A program made the position numbers and the translations under genes. From IMG/VR virus record IMGVR_UViG_3300025159_000081, positions 1 through 30,637 of that record: a stretch of DNA of 30,637 nt, one strand, 5' to 3'. The notes under the pieces were generated by a model, which worked only from the letters and a program-made list of their open reading frames with translations, was not told the origin of the DNA and did no database searches. Position 1 is the stretch's first letter, and each line of letters opens with the position of its first letter. Of the stretch, positions 1,373-29,206 are shown in pieces. This stretch comes from a virus.

Positions 1373-2906
1373 GGTCGTCCTCAAGAAACGCTATCTGTTA
1401 GAGAGAAACGGCAGACAGGAAACCGCCGGAGAAATGTTCCGACGGGTCGCGGAGCATGTGGCTAAAGCGGAACCTCCTGAAAAACAGCAGGAGTGGGCCG
1501 ACAAGTTCTTCGATATGCTGGTTGACCTTGATGGTCTACCTAATAGTCCAACGCTGTTCAACGCGGGCACCGACGTTGGGATGTTAAGTGCCTGTTTCAC
1601 TTTTCATGTTCAGGACACGTTGGACAGCATCATGGAGGTAGCTCGCCTAGCTGCCAAGGTTCAACAGTGGGGAGGTGGTGTCGGTTATGGACTATCACAT
1701 CTGCGGCCAGAGGGCTCTCTAGTTCATTCGACCGGCGGAAAATCAAGTGGGCCTGTTGGCTTCATGGCGTTGTATCAGTCCGTAGCGGATGTTATCACTC
1801 AAGGCGGCAAGCGTCATGGCGCTCAGATGGCGGTTCTACACTGTGACCATCCTGATATCTACAAGTTCATCCACTGTAAAGACGACCACCCAGAGAAGCT
1901 GAACACGTTTAACATCTCTGTTGCGCTGACCGACGAGTTTATGCGCGCGGCTGATAGCAATCCTTTGTTGGATGAGATGGCCCAATCAGCCTGGAAGAGT
2001 GGCGATCCTGGTTGCTATTTTATCGACCGCGCAGAGCGTGATAATCCAACCCCAAAGCTAGGGAAGCTCGAAGCGACAAATCCGTGCGGCGAAGTTCCAC
2101 TTCTGCATGGAGAAGCATGTAATCTGGGAAGCGTGAACCTAGGTAACTTCGTAACACCTCCATATGTTCCATATGGTTTTGATTGGGACAGGCTCTGCCG
2201 AATAGTCTCCACGATGACACGAATGCTCGAAGATGTTGTCGAAGTCAACCGCTTCCCAGACCAATTGATAACCGAAGCCGTCCGTCGGACGAGAAAGATA
2301 GGCTTAGGCGTCATGGGCTGGGCCGATGCGCTGGCTCTTCTGAGTATTCCCTATGACTGCCAAGAGGCAGTTGATCTTGGTCGAGAAATCATGTCTGCCA
2401 TTCAAGAGAAAGCACACGAGACGAGTGAGAAAATTGCTGAGGAAAGAGGTGCGTTCCCTGCGTTCGAGTCACCTGATATAACAGGAGGCATACGCCGTAA
2501 CGCTACCGTCACCTGTATCGCACCGACAGGCAGCATCGCAATCATCGCAGGTGCGAGTTCAGGTATTGAGCCACACTTCATGTTGAGCTACACACGCTAC
2601 ATGGGCTCTGAGGGTTATGAGCGAACACCTATCAATGTTGAGGAGCCTATCATTGCCAAACTCCGTGCAGCAGGGTCTGACTTCACACCGAAGACTGCTT
2701 TAGACATCGACTGGGGATGGCATCTAGCGCATCAAGCGGCGTTCCAAGATTGCACCGATCTTGCTGTCAGCAAGACGATTAATCTCCCTCAGAGTGCTAC
2801 TTGGCAGACAATACGTGAAGCCTATGCGCAGGCGTGGAAGTTAGGCTGCAAAGGTGTCACCGTTTATCGTGATAAGAGCAGAAGCGTACAGGTGTTGAAT
2901 GGATAA
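1341..2906 (+). CDS. nrdJ: Class II ribonucleotide reductase, catalytic part
   Basis: Adenosylcobalamin-dependent reduction of ribonucleotides to deoxyribonucleotides. All catalytic residues are visible: the redox pair C85 (SACF) and C260 (EACNLGSVNL), and the radical site N247-P-C249-G-E251. Also present are NSPTLFNAGT (68-77), the glycine-rich GGGVGYGLSHLRPEGS (111-126), RHGAQMAVL and the phosphate-binding PTGS motif. No class I radical-subunit gene is visible nearby, and the sequence reads as class II. At 521 aa the protein stops after GVTVYRDKSRS, where bacterial NrdJ proteins normally continue into a TSCPD domain and a Cys-rich tail. Those parts are encoded separately at 3089-3571. The ATG at 1341 has an AAGGAAG site. 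The stop overlaps the next start (ATGGATAA). Confidence 0.95.
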   Translation: MREPNLTEPAKVVLKKRYLLERNGRQETAGEMFRRVAEHVAKAEPPEKQQEWADKFFDMLVDLDGLPNSPTLFNAGTDVGMLSACFTFHVQDTLDSIMEVARLAAKVQQWGGGVGYGLSHLRPEGSLVHSTGGKSSGPVGFMALYQSVADVITQGGKRHGAQMAVLHCDHPDIYKFIHCKDDHPEKLNTFNISVALTDEFMRAADSNPLLDEMAQSAWKSGDPGCYFIDRAERDNPTPKLGKLEATNPCGEVPLLHGEACNLGSVNLGNFVTPPYVPYGFDWDRLCRIVSTMTRMLEDVVEVNRFPDQLITEAVRRTRKIGLGVMGWADALALLSIPYDCQEAVDLGREIMSAIQEKAHETSEKIAEERGAFPAFESPDITGGIRRNATVTCIAPTGSIAIIAGASSGIEPHFMLSYTRYMGSEGYERTPINVEEPIIAKLRAAGSDFTPKTALDIDWGWHLAHQAAFQDCTDLAVSKTINLPQSATWQTIREAYAQAWKLGCKGVTVYRDKSRSVQVLNG

Positions 2907-3096
2907 CGATCTAGCTGAACTCGACAGGCTTATGCGAATGGAAGACTACGTTCTGTTTGTTCACTGGGATGACGACCACCCTGACATTCACTTGACCACA
3001 GGTATGTGTGATGACTTCGGATGTAGCCCCAACTGCAAAGATTTCAAAACGTTGCATGAGGTTCTGAGTTACCTAAAAGAGACACACAATGGGTAA
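2899..3096 (+). CDS. Small acidic Cys-containing protein inserted in the split RNR
   Basis: A 65-aa acidic protein of unknown family. It overlaps the catalytic RNR gene by 8 bases (ATGGATAA) and the TSCPD gene by 8 bases (ATGGGTAA), so the three genes form one tightly coupled unit. It contains three cysteines (MCDDFGCSPNC) around residues 37-46, which might bind metal or take part in thiol exchange. The sequence begins with a short amphipathic helix (LAELDRLMRM), then VLFVHWDDDHPDIHL. Its position between two pieces of one enzyme suggests either a gene inserted at the domain boundary or an RNR accessory factor. Both are inference. Confidence 0.75.
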   Translation: MDNDLAELDRLMRMEDYVLFVHWDDDHPDIHLTTGMCDDFGCSPNCKDFKTLHEVLSYLKETHNG

Positions 3097-3571
3097 CGTA
3101 GAAGACCATGTGCGAAATGGTCGTAAGAAATTACCAAGAACACGTCGGTCGCTTACCCATAAAATTGACCTACCAGAGTTTGAGGGCTATGTCACAATTG
3201 GCTTCTATGATGATGACCAACCTGGCGAGGTCTTCATCGTCGCCAACAAGCAAGGCTCGACTATCTCCGGCTTGCTGGATGCAATCGGAATTCAGACCAG
3301 TATGCTATTGCAATATGGTGTTCCGCTCGAAGACATTGCCAGAAAGATGATAGGTCAACGCTTCGAGCCCCTCGGTAGGACGATGAACGATGACATCCCT
3401 TACGCACAGTCGATAGTTGATTACGTGTTCAGGTTTCTCGTCAGAACCTGTCTCAGCGCCCCCGTAGCAAGCGTCAGCGGGGACATCTGCCCCGAAGAGG
3501 GCTGCGGTGCTCCTTTAGTCTTTGAAGAAGGCTGTCTCAAGTGTCACGCTTGCGGGTATAGCAAATGCTAG
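3089..3571 (+). CDS. Detached TSCPD/C-terminal zinc domain of class II RNR
   Basis: A 160-aa protein that matches the C-terminal part of long bacterial NrdJ proteins. Residues 26-118 carry the TSCPD-type pattern: IGFYDDDQPGEVFI, then ISGLLDAIG, then LLQYGVPLEDI, RFEPLG and a SIVDYVFRFL helix. A Cys-rich tail follows (C134, C139, C149, C152, C155, C160). In class II enzymes this tail carries zinc and the mobile thiols that re-reduce the active-site disulphide. I infer that it works in trans with the nrdJ product. It is coupled to the 65-aa gene by an ATGGGTAA overlap, and its own stop overlaps the next ATG (ATGCTAG). The family assignment comes from remembered patterns, not from a search. Confidence 0.82.
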   Translation: MGNVEDHVRNGRKKLPRTRRSLTHKIDLPEFEGYVTIGFYDDDQPGEVFIVANKQGSTISGLLDAIGIQTSMLLQYGVPLEDIARKMIGQRFEPLGRTMNDDIPYAQSIVDYVFRFLVRTCLSAPVASVSGDICPEEGCGAPLVFEEGCLKCHACGYSKC

Positions 3572-7089: not shown

Positions 7090-7325
7090 ACTCTCCCCAA
7101 AGTCTCTGACGGTACTGTCTTCCTGACCTCCATGTAATCCTGCATCTCCTGACGGACTGTGTGTATCTCCAAATCCGGCCAGCCCGTCAGAATCAGCTTC
7201 AAGGGCAGAGTCGGCTGCGGCAGAAGCATCTTCGTCTTGGCGTAGTTCGCGGCTGCCCAAGCGGGGTCTCCTTCTTGCACTATCCATGTATGTCCGTACT
7301 CGTCTTCGCAGGCGATGTACGCCAC
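6966..7325 (-). CDS. Hypothetical protein after the ERCC4 nuclease
   Basis: A 119-aa protein whose ATG overlaps the last base of the ERCC4 gene's stop codon region, so it is probably co-translated with it. The first 65 residues look genuine (MAYIACEDEYGHTWIV, then WAAANYAKTKMLL and LKLILTGWPDLEIHTV). The remainder is less convincing, and a better coding frame starts nearby at 7089. No family recognised. The first half has the look of a small alpha/beta accessory protein. Confidence 0.55.
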   Translation of the reverse strand: MAYIACEDEYGHTWIVQEGDPAWAAANYAKTKMLLPQPTLPLKLILTGWPDLEIHTVRQEMQDYMEVRKTVPSETLGRVWVNLSRRFRAWKTQLSACGGREISEQRTMFSTEPDGLSSN

Positions 7326-8014
7326 TATATCTTCCTGACCATTAAGTCCTGAATCCTCTTAACCGTCGTAGGCCCAACATGAGGTATAGTTTGAACCTCA
7401 TCAGGGTCTTCCATACAGCGACGGAATATCATCCACAGATTCGGGTAAGCAGAGGATAGATTATCGAGCACAACCTTACCTATCATCGGTTCCATAAACC
7501 GACGCGCTGGGCTGACCTTATTTGTCAGTGTTAACGGTCTTCGGTTCTTCTCTACAATGTACTTGAGATTACCGTTCATCGTCCGCATAACCTGTACAAT
7601 GGCGGCGGCTGTAAACTGCGGTGGGACGAAGGGAAGGATGATGGCACCTAAGCAGGCTAACTCGATGAAGGCGTGGTAGGTGGCCATATAGTTCCACTGA
7701 CGCTTGCCTCTGTGCGTGCGAACCATCTTCCCGCTTTCACTTGGTATCAAGCGCCCCTCTGGAAGCAAGAAGGCCACATCTGCATCCTGAGTCAGCCGAA
7801 GCATCTGATCATACAGCGAGCCATCAGCAAGACAGCTCAGGAAGTCATTGGCCTCTTTCCGCTCCATCAACCAAGTCTTGCCTCGTTTAGATAGCGAACC
7901 GTAGTCCCCAGAGTTCATCTTCTCTCGGACGACCTTGACCCCTAGCTTACCAATGTCATCCGCTATTCGTTTGGGGTCACGAGTGTCCGCAGTCAGTACA
8001 TCCAATTCCAACAT
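7325..8014 (-). CDS. ERCC4-type (XPF/MUS81) structure-specific nuclease
   Basis: A 229-aa nuclease likely to cut branched or flapped DNA in recombination or replication. The ERCC4 signature is visible: D10-x-R12 near the N-terminus, G-D-Y at 36-38, then E51-R52-K53 with D57 following (the GDY...ERKxxxD core). The last 25 residues contain a helix-hairpin-helix (TIPHVGPTTVKRIQDL), the usual DNA-binding partner of this domain. Its ATG shares a base with the TAA of a small upstream ORF (TAATG at 8012-8016). Phages use such nucleases for recombination intermediates; the exact substrate is not readable. Confidence 0.88.
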   Translation of the reverse strand: MLELDVLTADTRDPKRIADDIGKLGVKVVREKMNSGDYGSLSKRGKTWLMERKEANDFLSCLADGSLYDQMLRLTQDADVAFLLPEGRLIPSESGKMVRTHRGKRQWNYMATYHAFIELACLGAIILPFVPPQFTAAAIVQVMRTMNGNLKYIVEKNRRPLTLTNKVSPARRFMEPMIGKVVLDNLSSAYPNLWMIFRRCMEDPDEVQTIPHVGPTTVKRIQDLMVRKI

Positions 8015-8471: not shown

Positions 8472-8495
8472 GGATAAGTCGAATGTCTGTGTCAA
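8466..8495 (-). promoter_or_regulatory. Leftward promoter for the HTH regulator unit
   Basis: Read on the minus strand, -35 TTGACA (8495 to 8490, perfect) is followed by an 18-base spacer and -10 TATACT (8471 to 8466). The start is predicted near 8459, 33 bases before the regulator ATG. Its -35 lies inside the first codons of the UDG gene, so rightward transcription would run through it. Confidence 0.72.
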
Positions 8496-9025
8496 CCTGC
8501 CCGCCTGAGCTTACGATCTGTAAGGACTGCCGTTTGCATGAGAAGGCGACGCAGGTTGTCCCTGGTGAGGGGTCTCTGGGTGCGAAGATACTGTTTCTAG
8601 GAGAGGCTCCTGGATATAATGAAGACCGACTGGGGCGACCGTTTGTAGGTAGGGCTGGTAACGTCCTTGACAGCATCCTGCGAGACCTTGGGATCAAGCG
8701 TAAGGACGCTTACATCACCAACATCGTGAAACACTGGCCTGAAGGGAACCGCGACCCCTTGCCCGATGAGATCGCCATCTGCAAGAGGTGGTTGGATTTG
8801 GAGTTAGAGATAGTCAAACCCAAACTGATAGTCTGTCTAGGGCTGTTCGCCGCCAGCCGGTTCTTCCCCAACAAGGCCAAAATAGGCTCGTTCAGAGTCC
8901 TGCCGGATAAGACCATCGTTGTCAGTGTCTACCACCCAGCGTTCTTCCTCCGCGCCCGCCGTCCGGCGATACGACAACAGATTTTGGCAGGTATCAGGGA
9001 GGGATTAGAACTTGCCAAAAGCTAA
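8483..9025 (+). CDS. Family 4 uracil-DNA glycosylase (Fe-S)
   Basis: A 180-aa enzyme that removes uracil from DNA. Motif 1 is GEAPGYNEDRLGRPFVGRAG (residues 40-59), with the family 4 GEAPG pattern. TNIVKHWPEGNRDP forms the middle of the active site, and VYHPAFFLR is motif 2 with the conserved His. Four cysteines (C13, C16, C100, C118) have the spacing that binds a 4Fe-4S cluster in family 4 enzymes. It is the first gene behind the 8434 promoter. A phage that makes its own UDG presumably uses thymine, not uracil, DNA and repairs dUTP incorporation or cytosine deamination; that is inference. Confidence 0.93.
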   Translation: MSVSTCPPELTICKDCRLHEKATQVVPGEGSLGAKILFLGEAPGYNEDRLGRPFVGRAGNVLDSILRDLGIKRKDAYITNIVKHWPEGNRDPLPDEIAICKRWLDLELEIVKPKLIVCLGLFAASRFFPNKAKIGSFRVLPDKTIVVSVYHPAFFLRARRPAIRQQILAGIREGLELAKS

Positions 9026-9344
9026 GAGCCGCCGTCTTCAAACCGGCAAGGACTCTTATTGGGGTGGACAGCCAGACATAGTAGGTCGGAATGAGATCGC
9101 TGATGCTATCTCAGAGGCTCAGGACGCGCTAGGGTTGACAGACCTCATGCTGGCTAAACGCGCACACGTTACCGTGAAACTGATTCGGTTCTTCAAACGG
9201 CCATTAGGCTCCCATAACGTAGTTGCTGGTGGATTTTATACGGCAAGCGCCAGGATGTCCGTCAACGCCCACAGAGCCGAATGCTTAAAGAGGATAACAG
9301 ATACATTAGAATCCTGCTTAACAAGGAAGATTAAAAATGCGTGA
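9012..9344 (+). CDS. HTH-like (XRE-type) small protein
   Basis: A 110-aa protein starting at TTG 9012, 8 bases after GGGAGG and inside the last codons of the UDG gene. Residues 37-65 (ALGLTDLMLAKRAHVTVKLI, then RFFKR) fit an XRE/Cro-type helix-turn-helix with a degenerate second half. The N-terminus is basic (PKAKSRRLQTGKDS). It overlaps the macro domain gene by 8 bases. It may be a DNA-binding regulator of the operon or, with the macro gene, half of a two-gene module. The HTH call is tentative. Confidence 0.65.
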   Translation: MPKAKSRRLQTGKDSYWGGQPDIVGRNEIADAISEAQDALGLTDLMLAKRAHVTVKLIRFFKRPLGSHNVVAGGFYTASARMSVNAHRAECLKRITDTLESCLTRKIKNA

Positions 9345-9816
9345 AGTAGTTGGAGACCTTTGGGAAGTTGAAGCCGACGCCCGCGTCATTACAACCAACG
9401 GCACTATCAAAAAGAACGGCGCTGCTGTTATGGGGCGCGGTGTAGCGAAGCAGGCGAGCGTTAAGTATCCCATTTTGCCCTACGCACTGGGGGACATGCT
9501 TAAAAGCGTTGGCAATGTGCCCACCGTCTTCCGCCACTTAGACAACACCATTCCAATTATTACGCTTCCGGTCAAGCACGAATGGTATCAAAAAGCCGAT
9601 CTCGCTTTGATTGAGAAGAGTCTCCAACTCCTTGTCGATGTCGTAGATAAAGAAGGGTTTGAGGTTGTCGTGTTACCACGTCCAGGCTGCGGCAATGGAG
9701 GTTTGGCTTGGGCAGATGTAAGGCATATACTTGCATGGTATTTGGACGACCGCTTCTTGGTGCTTAATTACAATGGTGAACCTCTCCCTATATCTAAAAC
9801 TCCACGGCTGCCTTAA
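9337..9816 (+). CDS. Macro domain protein (ADP-ribose binding/hydrolase)
   Basis: A 159-aa single macro domain. The ADP-ribose pocket motifs are clear: VITTNGTIKKNGAAVMGRGV (the N-G and GxGxA loop) and PRPGCGNGGLAW (the second phosphate loop). The GCGNGGLxW form resembles the DarG and Poa1p-like branch that removes ADP-ribose from DNA or clears ADP-ribose 1''-phosphate. AAGGAAG precedes ATG 9337. In a phage the likely jobs are reversing host ADP-ribosylation defence (for example DarT on DNA) or recycling ADP-ribose; this is inferred from family knowledge. It sits in the replication operon, two small ORFs upstream of polA. Confidence 0.88.
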   Translation: MREVVGDLWEVEADARVITTNGTIKKNGAAVMGRGVAKQASVKYPILPYALGDMLKSVGNVPTVFRHLDNTIPIITLPVKHEWYQKADLALIEKSLQLLVDVVDKEGFEVVVLPRPGCGNGGLAWADVRHILAWYLDDRFLVLNYNGEPLPISKTPRLP

Positions 9817-23790: not shown

Positions 23791-24744
23791 CTAATCTACA
23801 GCGTCTGAAAAGAACACACCAGCGCGGTTGTCGATAACCTTCTGGTCGTATGCCGTCCGGCCCTCGATGATGTCCACCATGCGCTCATCATCCCTGATTC
23901 GGCGTGTGACCATGCGGTCGCCGCCTGTGAAGGGACGCTGAACGAAAGTGTAGATAGCTGAAGGCTGGAACCGTCCAATGGACTTCGGCAGGTAGAGAAG
24001 AAGAGCGTCGTCATCGAACAGATCGGCCAGCGCCAGCGTTGCGCCCTCAAGGTTGGTCGCCTGCATGGACGCAGCGACGATAACCTTGTCCAGCCGAAGC
24101 AGCCGCTTCAGCAGGTCTTCGGAAACGTCGTTGCCTTGGTACTTAACACGCTCCACCAGCAACGGGTGGTCGATCAGAACATCCATGACGAACTCACCAA
24201 GAAGTAGGGTGTTAGCCGCCCTGCCGATCTTCGTCCTAACCGTTCGGCGGTCTTTGCGAAGATCAACGATGGGGTCGGAGAGACCGTAGTCGCTCCACTT
24301 GGTAAAGTCGGTTGTGCCAACGCGGTCAGTGGCCCACACGCCAGCCTTGAACTTGTTGATCGCAAAGTCAACTTCCTGACGAAGCTGAATCATCTCCGCG
24401 ACCCACTTGGCTCCATCCGCGTCCAAATCGTAGGGCGCGTCTGTGTTCTGTCGCAGACGGTCAGGGATTTCCTTGGCGATAGCGTGCTCGATCACTGCGT
24501 ACTTCAGAGTGTTGAGGGTGGTGAAGCCAGACCGAGGTGCCTTCTCACCAGGGGCGATAGGGCGTGCTACATCGCGGAACCAGAAATCCTGAACGTACTG
24601 AGGAATGATATCGGACTCCTTCTCCACGATGACAATCGGAGCCACCTGAGCCGCAACGTAATCGGGGTTGGTGTAACCGATTGAAATCTGTGTCAGGAGT
24701 TTGTCTACATGGACATCAACGATGTCCGGCTGAAACCCAGGCAT
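23791..24744 (-). CDS. Major capsid protein (HK97 fold)
   Basis: A 317-aa main shell subunit. It starts PDIVDVHVDKLLTQISIGYT, the common opening of capsid proteins from this group. The A-domain and P-domain like segments include AKEIPDRLRQN, WVAEMIQLRQEVDFAINKF, NTLLLGEFVMDVLIDHP and the C-terminal RRIRDDERMVDIIEGR. It is placed between a decoration gene (24772) and small head proteins, in canonical order. Its N-terminal 13 residues recur in the upstream fusion protein. I do not see a cleavage site. Confidence 0.85.
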   Translation of the reverse strand: MPGFQPDIVDVHVDKLLTQISIGYTNPDYVAAQVAPIVIVEKESDIIPQYVQDFWFRDVARPIAPGEKAPRSGFTTLNTLKYAVIEHAIAKEIPDRLRQNTDAPYDLDADGAKWVAEMIQLRQEVDFAINKFKAGVWATDRVGTTDFTKWSDYGLSDPIVDLRKDRRTVRTKIGRAANTLLLGEFVMDVLIDHPLLVERVKYQGNDVSEDLLKRLLRLDKVIVAASMQATNLEGATLALADLFDDDALLLYLPKSIGRFQPSAIYTFVQRPFTGGDRMVTRRIRDDERMVDIIEGRTAYDQKVIDNRAGVFFSDAVD

Positions 24745-25185: not shown

Positions 25186-26349
25186 TTACGCGGCCCGCAA
25201 ACTGGAGGGCCGATTGCGAACTTCCTCTTGGTACTGACCCCAGAGAATAGGATCGCTCTTGCCGACGTGCTCAATGGCCGCAGCCATGTCCTTGATACCG
25301 AACTCACTCTTGGCGACGATAGCCTGAGCCTTGCTCATCACGATGGCCTCAGCAGAGCCCGCCCCAGGCTGACCGGATGAGACGCGACCGAACAGCTCGC
25401 TCTTGGACACCTGCTCCTTCAGACCCTTCTGCTCTGTAATATAAGCCTCGAAGTCCTCCGGCGTCATGCTCTTCTTGAAGCCGACAAGCCGCTTGGCGAC
25501 GATTTCGACATCACCAGGAAGGTCGGCGGCAAGGGCTCGCATCTCTGCCAGCTCCTTCTCGCCCTGAAGCTCCTCGGCAGTCTTCTCGACCACAGAGAGT
25601 CGCTCCTGTAGTGGCTGTTGGATGGCCTCCACCAGACCTGGGAAGGCGCTCTTGGCAAACGCGACCAGCTCGTCGCCGGACTTCTGACCGGAAGGCAGTT
25701 TGGTCTTGATGGATTTGGCGAACTCAGCCACCGGCTCAGGCACTCCGGCGATGTTGGTCAACGCCTCACCGATTGCGCGAAGAGCAGTTTTGGTAGGCTC
25801 GTCGGCCTTGTCGAAGTTGAACTCTGGGGGAGCCTTTTTCTTCGGCTTACCCTCCTCATCCAAATTCTCATCGTCCATCATGTGTTGAGCCTTGGCCTCG
25901 GCATCCTTTGCCTTCAGGAACATCGCGTAGCGTGCGTCCTCATCCAGCTTCTCGAACTCAGCCTTTAGCTCCTCTTCGGAAGCTGCCTTGACGCCAGCAG
26001 CACTTGCAGCAGCCATTAGTTTCCTCCTTGCTGTTTCCTTGGCAGCCGCAGAGATGTTCGTCTGCGGTAGCCTTGATAGCGCGTTCCGAACATGTGGCGC
26101 ATCTACTTTACCACTTCCGTCCTTATAGGGAAGGTGTCTGAGACTTCTTGGGGTTGTTTTTCCTTCTCCATCTTTTGTTCCACCTGGCTCGATATAGGCG
26201 AACGAGCTATCTGGTAGGTCATTGATGAACGCCGCCGTCCACTCAGCCTCCTCAAACTCCTTTTTGACCATGATGAACTTTTCTTTTATAGCAGGAGCGA
26301 CAGTAAGAGACAGCTCAATCTCGTCAATGTCCTGAAGCTCAACATCCAT
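25186..26349 (-). CDS. Scaffold-like protein with a phage N-terminal domain
   Basis: A 387-aa protein between the fusion gene and the capsid genes, the usual scaffold place. The N-terminal 100 residues hold a domain often seen in phage head proteins: FAYIEPGGTKDGEGKTTPRS, then LRHLPYKDGSG, HVRNALSRLPQT and ARRKLMAAA. The rest is charged and helical (EELKAEFEKLDEDARYAMFL, then LQGEKELAEMRALAADL), as expected for scaffolding. I choose ATG 26349; a TTG one codon earlier is also open. A role as capsid scaffold is likely but unproven. Confidence 0.72.
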   Translation of the reverse strand: MDVELQDIDEIELSLTVAPAIKEKFIMVKKEFEEAEWTAAFINDLPDSSFAYIEPGGTKDGEGKTTPRSLRHLPYKDGSGKVDAPHVRNALSRLPQTNISAAAKETARRKLMAAASAAGVKAASEEELKAEFEKLDEDARYAMFLKAKDAEAKAQHMMDDENLDEEGKPKKKAPPEFNFDKADEPTKTALRAIGEALTNIAGVPEPVAEFAKSIKTKLPSGQKSGDELVAFAKSAFPGLVEAIQQPLQERLSVVEKTAEELQGEKELAEMRALAADLPGDVEIVAKRLVGFKKSMTPEDFEAYITEQKGLKEQVSKSELFGRVSSGQPGAGSAEAIVMSKAQAIVAKSEFGIKDMAAAIEHVGKSDPILWGQYQEEVRNRPSSLRAA

Positions 26350-26402
26350 CAAACCTGCACCCGCGATTCAAGTGACACACAATTTTCTGATGTTGTCAAG
26401 AC

Positions 26403-28883
26403 CTATTGGCCAACTTCCTTACGCTCGCCAGGAGGAGGTCGTCCAACCTTCTTTCGAGCGAAACCTCTAACGCTGGTTCCTACATATTCACCACTTTTTA
26501 TCTTCTTCCACACTTTATCATTTTGAACCCACAAAACTGTTACCCATGTGCCCTCAGGGAGAGAACGCTGATTGCCCTGGTGGTCAACAAAGTCCCAGTC
26601 GTAGGGCAAAACGTAAGACTGCACAGGAAAGACACCTGGGATGGCCTTCTGATGCTCAGACCAAATCGGAACATCCTTGAGCAAGAAGTTGTGGGCGACT
26701 TTCATAATCGTCTCAGGCGTCTGCCAGTGGCCCTCACCGTCAACGGTGTTCGGGATCATATTTACTGACCAGACGAGATGTTGGTCTTCGCTTTTGGCCA
26801 TGACGAAAAGCCGCTCATCGTCGTCAACAACGTTCTCTTCACTGAGCAACTTGTCAACGTGTATATCAGCAGAGTCTGGTTGGCTCTTTTCAACATGATT
26901 AAGGTCGAAGTTGGAGACCAAAATCTCAGGATCATCTCGCAATTTTCCAGTTGGGCCTAATGCCATCTGTCGGGGAACGGCTATCTTTGTAACCTGGAAG
27001 TCCTTTGGAATAACCTTAGCTATTTCACCTTCCAGTGATAGGATAAACTTGCCTTTGATGGTCTTCAGAACCTCAAGAAGTCTGTGGAGGTCTTTGCCTC
27101 CCCACTCATCGCTTGAGGCGCGACCGCCATGACCACCTTCATCCCATTTCCACTCCGTCGGGTACGGTGGGTCGAGGTAGAAAAACGTCTCTGGGCCATC
27201 GAACTTCTGAATGATGTCAACTGCGTCTCGGTTGGCGATGACAACACCCTTCAGCCGATCTCGTATCTGAGGTAGCCGAGACGCAACTTTCATCACCTTG
27301 CCCTCGTGACTGGCTGAAGGCTGCGTGTAGTTGCCGTAAGCAGAGCCTCGCATATACAGGAAGCGGTATAAACGGCCTGTCCTACCTGCTGCTGTACTCT
27401 TCTTCAATTGGTTGAAGCGGTCTTTGCTGATAGTCCAGTCCATCCGTTGTATCTTACGGACTTCACCATCATCAACAGTCTGTAGGTCTTTATACGTCTG
27501 AGCGATATCAACGTCCAGATCGTTCAAGACCTCACGCTCACTGGGGTCTTTGGCGAAGAAGACAGCGGCACCGCCTGCGTAGCATTCGACAAAGGTAGAG
27601 TGTTGCGGAATCATCGCCGCAATCTTCTTAGCAATAGCTCGCTTACCACCTGGACTACCAAACGCCTGCTGTGTAGATTTAGAGAAAGGCGCAAGTGTTC
27701 GTGGCTCGAACAGGTCACAGGTATACTCTGAATCAATATCACCTATAACCAATTTACAAGTACCTATAGCCGATTTCGGCGTCTCACCCTTACTTCGTAC
27801 CCAAGCGGCAGCAGAAGTGGAGTCCCACTTACCCTTGTCGAACCTGTAGGATTGAACACGGGTCGTCTCTTGGCCTCTAGGACGACCAATTACAGCACGG
27901 ATACCTTTTGACGCGCTGATACTAATCGTTCGGAAAGAGTCAGCTTGGAAATCATCAACGGGGCGGACTCTGACACGTATCTCGTTGGGTTTGACATCGA
28001 CAGACTTAGACATCACAGCAACGTCTTCTGCTGGCACAACTCGACTGTCCAAACCCATCTCAGCGATCCTTGCAGTAAACGCTTCAAGTGCGTCTGTTAT
28101 CGCCTTTGATAATCCAATGCGTTCATCTCTACTTAGGTGTCCCATCTCACGAAGATCGTCCATCGCTTCGGTATACGCTCGATGTATCCGAGCTTCGGCA
28201 ATCGCCGCCAGTGTGGTATTAGTCTTGGAGAACGCTGCTTCAGAAACAGTCGAAGAGGGAACAAAAAACCGACAGGAACCACAGTCACCTTCTTCTTCAC
28301 CCTGCGGCTCACGGTAATTAACAGATTCCTTATGTACCTGATGTGTCTTCTCAACCAACGAGAGAACCTGACCATCAGAGAGCTTGGTGACACCCGTGGG
28401 GAAGGAAGACTTACGCATCTCGTCAGTCAGTCCTATCAGGTAGATTCGGGAGATACCTGCGCTCTTAGCCATCGCAACAGTGTGGTTAGAGTTGTCACCG
28501 GACATGATGACAACATCAGCACCTAAAAGCTCACGTGGAAAGTCAGTGGCAAAGGGGACGTAGCCGACGTTGATGCCACAGCTCTTTATCATGTAGCCGT
28601 AGGCTTTCTCATACTCATTATGGGCCTTCTTTGCCACCTGAAACGGCTCAATCTCGAAGCCTTCTGTGGACAGTTTGCCTGCGCCCATGACGGGGATGTT
28701 AAACACCTCAGCGAACTCTTGAGCCTTCTTGATGATCTCTTCACTACGTTGAGTGAGAAAAAGGACATCGGGCTCGACAGGCAAATCAGTAGGAATGTCA
28801 AACAGAATGGTCTTATTAGGGTGCTCAACAAGCATCGAAGGCTGTTGTCCGGTTGACAGGAAATGGAAGCGCAGCTCAGACAT
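26403..28883 (-). CDS. Fusion: MBL-like + adenine methylase + XkdF-like
   Basis: An 826-aa multidomain protein. Residues 1-180 resemble a degenerate metallo-beta-lactamase fold (FHFLSTGQQPSMLVE, ILFDIPTDLPVEPDVLFLTQ) without the His motif. Residues 200-205 carry DCGSCRFF. Residues 300-365 are a common phage module (RVRVRPVDDF, SFRTISI, GIRAVIGRPRGQ, then KGKWDSTSAAAWVRSKG). Residues 400-660 are a D12/Dam-type N6-adenine methyltransferase with GGKRAIAKK, FVECYAGGAAVFF and D571-P-P-Y. Residues 690-812 resemble XkdF (Peptidase_S78_2), with WSEHQ (H744), EGTWV and GTSVRGFA (S804), possibly a head-maturation protease. The ATG shares a base with the upstream TGA. No frame break is seen. Confidence 0.85.
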   Translation of the reverse strand: MSELRFHFLSTGQQPSMLVEHPNKTILFDIPTDLPVEPDVLFLTQRSEEIIKKAQEFAEVFNIPVMGAGKLSTEGFEIEPFQVAKKAHNEYEKAYGYMIKSCGINVGYVPFATDFPRELLGADVVIMSGDNSNHTVAMAKSAGISRIYLIGLTDEMRKSSFPTGVTKLSDGQVLSLVEKTHQVHKESVNYREPQGEEEGDCGSCRFFVPSSTVSEAAFSKTNTTLAAIAEARIHRAYTEAMDDLREMGHLSRDERIGLSKAITDALEAFTARIAEMGLDSRVVPAEDVAVMSKSVDVKPNEIRVRVRPVDDFQADSFRTISISASKGIRAVIGRPRGQETTRVQSYRFDKGKWDSTSAAAWVRSKGETPKSAIGTCKLVIGDIDSEYTCDLFEPRTLAPFSKSTQQAFGSPGGKRAIAKKIAAMIPQHSTFVECYAGGAAVFFAKDPSEREVLNDLDVDIAQTYKDLQTVDDGEVRKIQRMDWTISKDRFNQLKKSTAAGRTGRLYRFLYMRGSAYGNYTQPSASHEGKVMKVASRLPQIRDRLKGVVIANRDAVDIIQKFDGPETFFYLDPPYPTEWKWDEGGHGGRASSDEWGGKDLHRLLEVLKTIKGKFILSLEGEIAKVIPKDFQVTKIAVPRQMALGPTGKLRDDPEILVSNFDLNHVEKSQPDSADIHVDKLLSEENVVDDDERLFVMAKSEDQHLVWSVNMIPNTVDGEGHWQTPETIMKVAHNFLLKDVPIWSEHQKAIPGVFPVQSYVLPYDWDFVDHQGNQRSLPEGTWVTVLWVQNDKVWKKIKSGEYVGTSVRGFARKKVGRPPPGERKEVGQ

Positions 28884-29206
28884 CAGAGAGCACTCTCCAC
28901 AGCAAAACTGATCTTCTCCGTTTTCCGCACCGTGCCACCGACGGTCATTTGTACTTGGAGAGTCCAAGCGGCAACCTCAGCAGCCAGCCAAGCGGAGGGA
29001 AGCAGATAGGTGATAATCCCGTTCACGCCGTCACTGATGACTGCATCGTCATCGGGGTCTGCGTGCCGATTAGTTGTCGCACCGCGTTTACGTAGGAGAA
29101 CCTTTACGGCCTGTCCGGTGAGATTAACAGCAGCGCCAGTATCTTTGTCTTTGATGGTAAGTGTAAGAGTGTAAACTTCTCCAGCGAAGAACGGCCCAAA
29201 CGACAT
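28883..29206 (-). CDS. Small beta-sandwich structural protein
   Basis: A 107-aa protein that looks like a phage Ig-like/BppU N-terminal domain: FFAGEVYTLTLTIKDKDTGA, AVNLTGQAVKVLLRK, WTLQVQMTVGGTVRKTEK. Such domains attach fibres or decorate particles. Its TGA overlaps the fusion gene ATG, and its own ATG shares a base with the stop of the gene before. The annotation is by pattern. Confidence 0.68.
   Translation of the reverse strand: MSFGPFFAGEVYTLTLTIKDKDTGAAVNLTGQAVKVLLRKRGATTNRHADPDDDAVISDGVNGIITYLLPSAWLAAEVAAWTLQVQMTVGGTVRKTEKISFAVESAL

Follow-up and report, generated by a model that had tools for sequence, protein, structure and literature searches.

Why would a phage encode a DNA adenine methylase in one chain with a capsid-maturation protease? 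The question is raised by a single gene within the 30,637-nucleotide viral stretch analysed here (IMG/VR record IMGVR_UViG_3300025159_000081, hereafter "the window"). The first-pass annotation had described an unbroken frame of 826 amino acids at 26403-28883 that joins a metallo-beta-lactamase (MBL)-like N-terminus, a CxxC element, a phage head-associated module, a D12-type methyltransferase and a C-terminal XkdF-like segment. Both the coordinates and the single frame proved correct, with the ORF lying on the minus strand (28883-26403), where it runs without interruption; translation of the plus strand over the same interval contains many stops. The open frame as a whole comprises 854 codons (28967-26403, minus strand), reaching upstream to a TTG at 28967, and the ATG at 28883 overlaps the stop of the preceding gene as TGATG.

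An assembly chimera could be ruled out, since the complete ORF was found to be identical, letter for letter (100%), in four contigs from other IMG/VR assemblies, and since a homologue from a different assembly (L085, IMG/VR 3300003319) has its domains in the same order. An 8-mer search for close relatives returned nothing beyond the identical copies. Identity between L085 and the window protein is 53% across residues 291-824 and 27% in the MBL segment, and pS exceeded pN in each of the four segments compared, dS being mostly saturated in this comparison. The fused architecture is therefore a product neither of chance nor of assembly. The whole window is contained in a 61.6-kb contig (G004), which also carries terminase-like and portal-like ORFs, named by reading the sequences without profile search.

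Table 1. Features of the fusion gene and its neighbours (coordinates are those of the window; residues are those of the 826-amino-acid protein).
Feature	Coordinates	Strand	Basis or remark
Fused head protein of 826 aa: MBL fold, head modules, D12 methylase, XkdF protease	26403..28883	-	ORF
Predicted metallo-beta-lactamase fold, ligands lost, residues 1-165	28389..28883	-	AlphaFold2 and Foldseek, alignment
CxxC element (CGSC), residues 201-204, in low-confidence linker (residues 170-225)	28272..28283	-	Sequence, pLDDT
Helical module, residues 216-275	28059..28238	-	Common in phage head-protease/scaffold ORFs
Alpha/beta module 'SFRTI...KGIRAVIGRPRG', residues 295-373	27765..28001	-	Common in phage head-region ORFs
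D12-class N6-adenine methylase, residues 405-660	26904..27671	-	Pfam, motifs, structural matches
Methylase-protease linker, residues 665-699, candidate cleavage region	26787..26891	-	pLDDT <50
XkdF / Peptidase_S78_2, residues 693-811; candidate catalytic His744 and Ser804	26451..26807	-	Pfam, alignment, structure
388-aa ORF directly downstream, scaffold-like position	25186..26352	-	Position judged from L085 and L121
Major head protein (phrog_1005), third gene after the fusion	23791..24744	-	PHROG profile
107-aa BppU_N-like ORF (below Pfam cut-off), upstream, one-base overlap with the fusion	28883..29206	-	Profile

Independent profile matches were obtained for the two enzyme domains, in agreement with the first-pass annotation. 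Pfam MethyltransfD12 (PF02086) matched residues 411-616 with 55.1 bits (curated cut-off 22; E 1e-14), and both methylase motifs are in place, motif I (YAGGAA) at 435-440 and DPPY at 571-574. The Dam subfamily model TIGR00571 scored 63.7 bits, below its curated cut-off of 114.85, and we make no claim of GATC specificity. By sequence, the nearest solved structures are adenine methylases, which we take to be the DpnM-type and T4 Dam enzymes. Peptidase_S78_2/XkdF (PF14550) matched residues 693-811 with 73.1 bits (cut-off 24; E 3e-20), and the protease role expected of an XkdF-like segment fits its conserved candidate catalytic His and Ser: all 37 aligned XkdF copies have His744, and all 35 that cover the position have Ser804. 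On the methylase side, DPPY is present in 83 of 84 aligned rows and the motif I glycine (G437) is nearly invariant, tandem copies included. Both enzyme domains retain their active-site residues. At one XkdF position that is mostly Glu, the window protein has Gln (Q755), as do two further aligned copies, and this substitution could make for a weaker protease.

In a full-length structural model (mean pLDDT 66.9), compact modules, among them a methylase core mostly at 88-98, are connected through linkers at residues 170-225, 282-312, 371-402 and 665-699, where pLDDT drops below 50. Compared with viral structures, the model matched adenine methylases and, separately, XkdF proteins. A single family of unknown function in PHROGs v4, phrog_13242 (450 positions), covers both methylase and XkdF (residues 406-813, E 2.6e-51), showing that such fusions are already present, unnamed, in that database; the match begins at residue 406, so that the MBL fold and head modules fall outside it. 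Within the linker just ahead of XkdF, the window encodes HVDKLL (26844-26861, minus strand), which recurs near the N-terminus of the major capsid protein (24694-24711, minus strand), and HVxxLL is found at the same place ahead of XkdF in RcTiptonus and L121; the occurrence of HVDKLL in both window proteins could reflect a common short motif or chance.

The N-terminal half was assigned by structure, as residues 1-200 gave no profile match. An AlphaFold2 model of this region, built with seven sequences, reached a pLDDT of about 70-89 over residues 1-130 and 61-63 over residues 131-150, falling below 50 beyond. A Foldseek search of the PDB with this model returned MBL folds, the best being 1zkp (E 1.8e-7, probability 1.00), with 6kns and 3g1p as further matches. 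At the site of the metal-binding motif (THxHxDH or HxHxDH), the window protein reads TQRSEEII and L085 reads TKSDEAQ, and an alignment with intact MBLs revealed that a later His has also been lost in both; the HxH motif is retained in the relatives L089, L092, L093 and L094. With the metal ligands gone and the fold present, residues 1-165 are predicted to form a dead MBL fold, in line with the earlier description of an MBL-like segment lacking its His motif. The CxxC element is likewise present, and is matched by CANC in L085. What had been taken for one head-associated module is associated with head genes, as proposed, but is actually two units, a helical pair and a small alpha/beta module. 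When degenerate DNA patterns for each were run against viral sequences, 43 stretches were retrieved by the helical-module pattern and 17 by the alpha/beta-module pattern, the window's own four copies counted in. In nearly all of these the module is encoded within a longer ORF, and most such ORFs resemble, by eye, head-protease, scaffold or portal-like proteins.

Where their genomic context is known, relatives of the fusion lie in the head gene cluster, after the portal and before the capsid gene. L092 and L093 have TerL, portal and fusion in direct succession, with the major head protein of L093 following downstream after one 401-aa ORF; L121 has TerL (identified by eye), portal and fusion with one small ORF between, and L128 has portal, MuF-like protein and fusion in that order. 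Downstream of the L085 fusion, ORFs of 303 and 118 amino acids precede the major capsid protein, the same order as in the window (scaffold-like ORF, small ORF, major capsid protein). The window's fusion is preceded by small ORFs and, in L004, by one long ORF of repetitive sequence, the portal not being immediately adjacent. The window's 388-aa ORF contains a module (INDLPDSxFAxIxxGG.K...GKT.PR.LRHxP) that recurs in other phage head-region ORFs (L074, L081) and also occurs inside a methylase-XkdF ORF (L129).

Several further ORFs lie away from the head genes: an ERCC4-type nuclease (7325-8014, minus strand), a uracil-DNA glycosylase (8483-9025, plus strand), a Macro-domain ORF (9337-9816, plus strand) and, recognised by eye from its DPPW motif, a second DNA methylase-like ORF (G004:39161-39847, plus strand). 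The ribonucleotide reductase large subunit is split into ORFs of 521 amino acids (1341-2906) and 160 amino acids (3089-3571, with a TSCPD domain), a small ORF (2899-3096) lying between them and all three being on the plus strand. Among the 16 palindromes of four bases, GATC shows the strongest depletion in G004:1-60000, which includes the window (130 seen against 300 expected, a ratio of 0.43), and counts of CCGG and CTAG are low too. The GATC depletion hints at pressure from GATC-directed enzymes and does not assign a target to the fusion methylase.

To find relatives we used the motif DPPYPxEW, which characterises the fusion methylases and takes the form DPPYY in the aligned stand-alone phage methylases. 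With this motif, 36 viral stretches were recovered, plus 21 in bacterial genomes, the latter being mostly metagenome-assembled genomes (MAGs) of Myxococcota and other Deltaproteobacteria, together with Pseudomonadota, Acidobacteriota, Planctomycetota and Spirochaetota. With the window included, 54 ORFs were collected (53 retrieved, some of them near-duplicates), in 37 of which (36 of 53 without the window) XkdF lies C-terminal to one (9 ORFs), two (25) or three (3) methylases. XkdF is absent from the other 17, one of which is a chance match without a methylase; the use of a methylase motif as bait biases this sample. The three tandem methylases of L128, L117 and L134 fall in separate old clades, and tandem copies may perhaps have different target sites.

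Further domains in the relatives (intact MBL, ASCH and ATP-dependent DNA ligase) are mostly enzymes that act on nucleic acids. Among the ORFs that lack XkdF, an MBL-methylase-DNA ligase order is found in L092 (which also has ASCH), L093 and L094, in chains of up to 1824 amino acids; L109 places the methylase first and has a DNA ligase and a weak MBL match. These four are giant ORFs of 1251-1824 amino acids, their ligase being of the ATP-dependent type. In L107 and L090 one or more methylases are followed by a ligase and then XkdF. The cultured Arthrobacter phage Ottawa encodes, three genes past its portal and two past a MuF-like protein, a gp87 (L136:3317-4456, annotated 'RNA ligase') in which a 2'-5' RNA ligase/2H phosphoesterase domain (Pfam E 4.7e-8) is fused to XkdF (E 8.1e-13).

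A search for XkdF that was blind to the methylase found nine copies in 284 Myxococcota genomes, six of them fused (five of eight without the centre genome) and several of these with two methylases; the same search of 399 Pseudomonadota genomes found two copies, the fused one being that of the centre genome. Because centre genomes were picked for having a fusion, these fused fractions are biased upward. The first-pass annotation had called the arrangement unusual. This holds among annotated phages, as no INPHARED record covered at least 80% of the window protein or of L106, L107, L092 or L093 in a tblastn search; as a singularity it does not, given at least 36 further methylase-XkdF ORFs on viral and MAG contigs and others in which the methylase is joined to an intact MBL and a DNA ligase. 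Two annotated proteins named as if fused proved on Pfam analysis to be XkdF only: RHph_TM16 (L009; 210 aa), annotated 'DNA methyltransferase/prohead protease', and gp33 of Lactococcus phage 28201 (L008; 349 aa), a 'DNA methyltransferase' in KX456206.1 and a 'head maturation protease' in RefSeq. With no methylase in either, these names are misleading and were probably copied from fused relatives. The reading favoured below, if true, may also account for the mixed names of some families. We found no description of XkdF-enzyme fusions in the literature searched, a body of work mostly outside the subscription journals.

Phylogenetic analysis placed 75 methylases of the DPPYPxEW type on one side of a branch (support 99/97), in a tree whose comparison set comprised just four stand-alone phage methylases; L085 and L088 grouped with the window on a separate branch. 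In the XkdF tree, fused proteins split between two clades (99/95 and 96/94) that are separated by unfused proteases. A single clade of methylase-fused XkdF was not rejected (AU p 0.074, with long branches in play), so the tree does no more than hint at repeated fusion of methylase to XkdF.

What might such a fusion be for? The reading we favour, to which we give an even chance, is that the protein is a polyvalent-type phage head polyprotein built on a capsid-maturation protease, in which a methylase is carried and released to act in cis. Its two enzyme domains score well above Pfam cut-offs, and each finds its own family in structure comparison. A link with packaging, or delivery within the capsid, as first proposed from the sequence, is plausible, and agrees with a conserved gene position between portal and capsid, with active sites that are intact and with linkers that are flexible. 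We infer packaging, cleavage and delivery along the following lines. The XkdF part would bring the chain into the prohead, perhaps helped by the dead MBL fold and the head modules; there the protease would mature the head and cut its own chain at the disordered linkers; and the freed methylase would remain with the DNA, modifying it in cis during packaging or right after ejection and so shielding it from restriction.

Rather unlikely, in our view, is that the methylase acts solely in the infected cell, as a late DNA-protecting enzyme that became fused to the protease gene and is simply cut off. Neighbouring enzyme and protease genes would fuse easily, methylase ORFs without XkdF occupy the same slot (L092, L093), and many phages have stand-alone D12 methylases elsewhere. 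Against this, six of the nine Myxococcota XkdF copies sought without regard to methylases are fused, several to two of them; the two fused XkdF clades are split by unfused proteins, hinting at repeated fusion; and XkdF is elsewhere joined to other enzymes (2H, ligase). Together these suggest that the linkage itself is selected. The slot between portal and capsid genes would suit a packaging or assembly adaptor, in which DNA binding at adenine sites ties the protease to the genome or times maturation and methylation is secondary, and tandem copies could raise DNA affinity; yet nearly every copy, also in tandem arrays, retains the catalytic motifs I and IV, which pure binding does not require, and we regard this role as improbable. 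Given rampant phage mosaicism and an MBL part without an active site, the methylase gene might also have been inserted by chance into a head gene and tolerated there without function. Conservation disfavours such a moron, the architecture being maintained in L085, where identity is down to 53% and pN stays below pS throughout the segments compared, and recurring in dozens of contigs, and we consider it very improbable.

What varies across the family is a set of DNA-modifying or DNA-repair enzymes; what stays constant is a capsid-maturation protease. The polyprotein reading may tentatively be widened, making XkdF a general cargo anchor with which unrelated phages load self-processing polyproteins into proheads, so that the means to protect and repair DNA would arrive, ready for use, together with the genome. 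The cargo would then possibly comprise methylase arrays, an MBL nuclease, ATP-dependent DNA ligase, and nucleotidyltransferase-like or 2H enzymes. The gene belongs to a little-noticed family in which phages join DNA-modifying or repair enzymes to head-assembly proteins, probably so that these enzymes travel inside or attached to the particle. Were the favoured reading true, a single domain pair would define a searchable class of virion-borne anti-restriction enzymes, the protease would offer a testable route for cargo loading and release, and phages would provide a natural way of packing enzymes into capsids.

Among known systems, the closest kind is that of the polyvalent proteins and P1 Dar. 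Polyvalent proteins carry unrelated enzyme domains in one chain, are encoded next to terminase-portal genes and are predicted to be packaged, the N6-adenine methylase being a hub domain among them (PMC5512222). The window protein resembles them in its several disparate domains and its place in a head gene cluster, portal adjacency being seen in its relatives. Processing of polyvalent proteins is assigned to zincin-like peptidases (Iyer et al. 2017, PMC5512222), whereas the window chain contains a capsid-maturation serine protease itself, and the main text of that paper makes no mention of XkdF, DNA ligase or lactamase; the window protein extends the polyvalent-protein idea in this respect. The P1 Dar proteins are borne in the virion head and protect in cis solely the DNA they came with (PMC12707154, PMC5512222). 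Like the role proposed here, in which delivery is conjectural, DarB places an adenine methylase in the virion head against restriction. DarB-type methylases, however, almost invariably come joined to an SF2 helicase and LPD36, and no helicase domain was found in the window protein at E-values up to 10, which counts against our favoured reading; the window methylase is of the D12 class, and no XkdF has been described in DarB. With the XkdF/Peptidase_S78_2 proteases (PF14550) the window protein shares the domain, the His and Ser residues and the position upstream of the capsid gene. The annotated phage XkdF homologues examined are mostly stand-alone, some having scaffold-like or uncharacterised extensions, whereas in the window protein the domain comes after an MBL fold, head modules and a methylase. 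Finally, MuF-domain effector fusions likewise join a portal-region head protein to an enzyme that is probable cargo; the window protein has no MuF domain, and its anchor would instead be XkdF.
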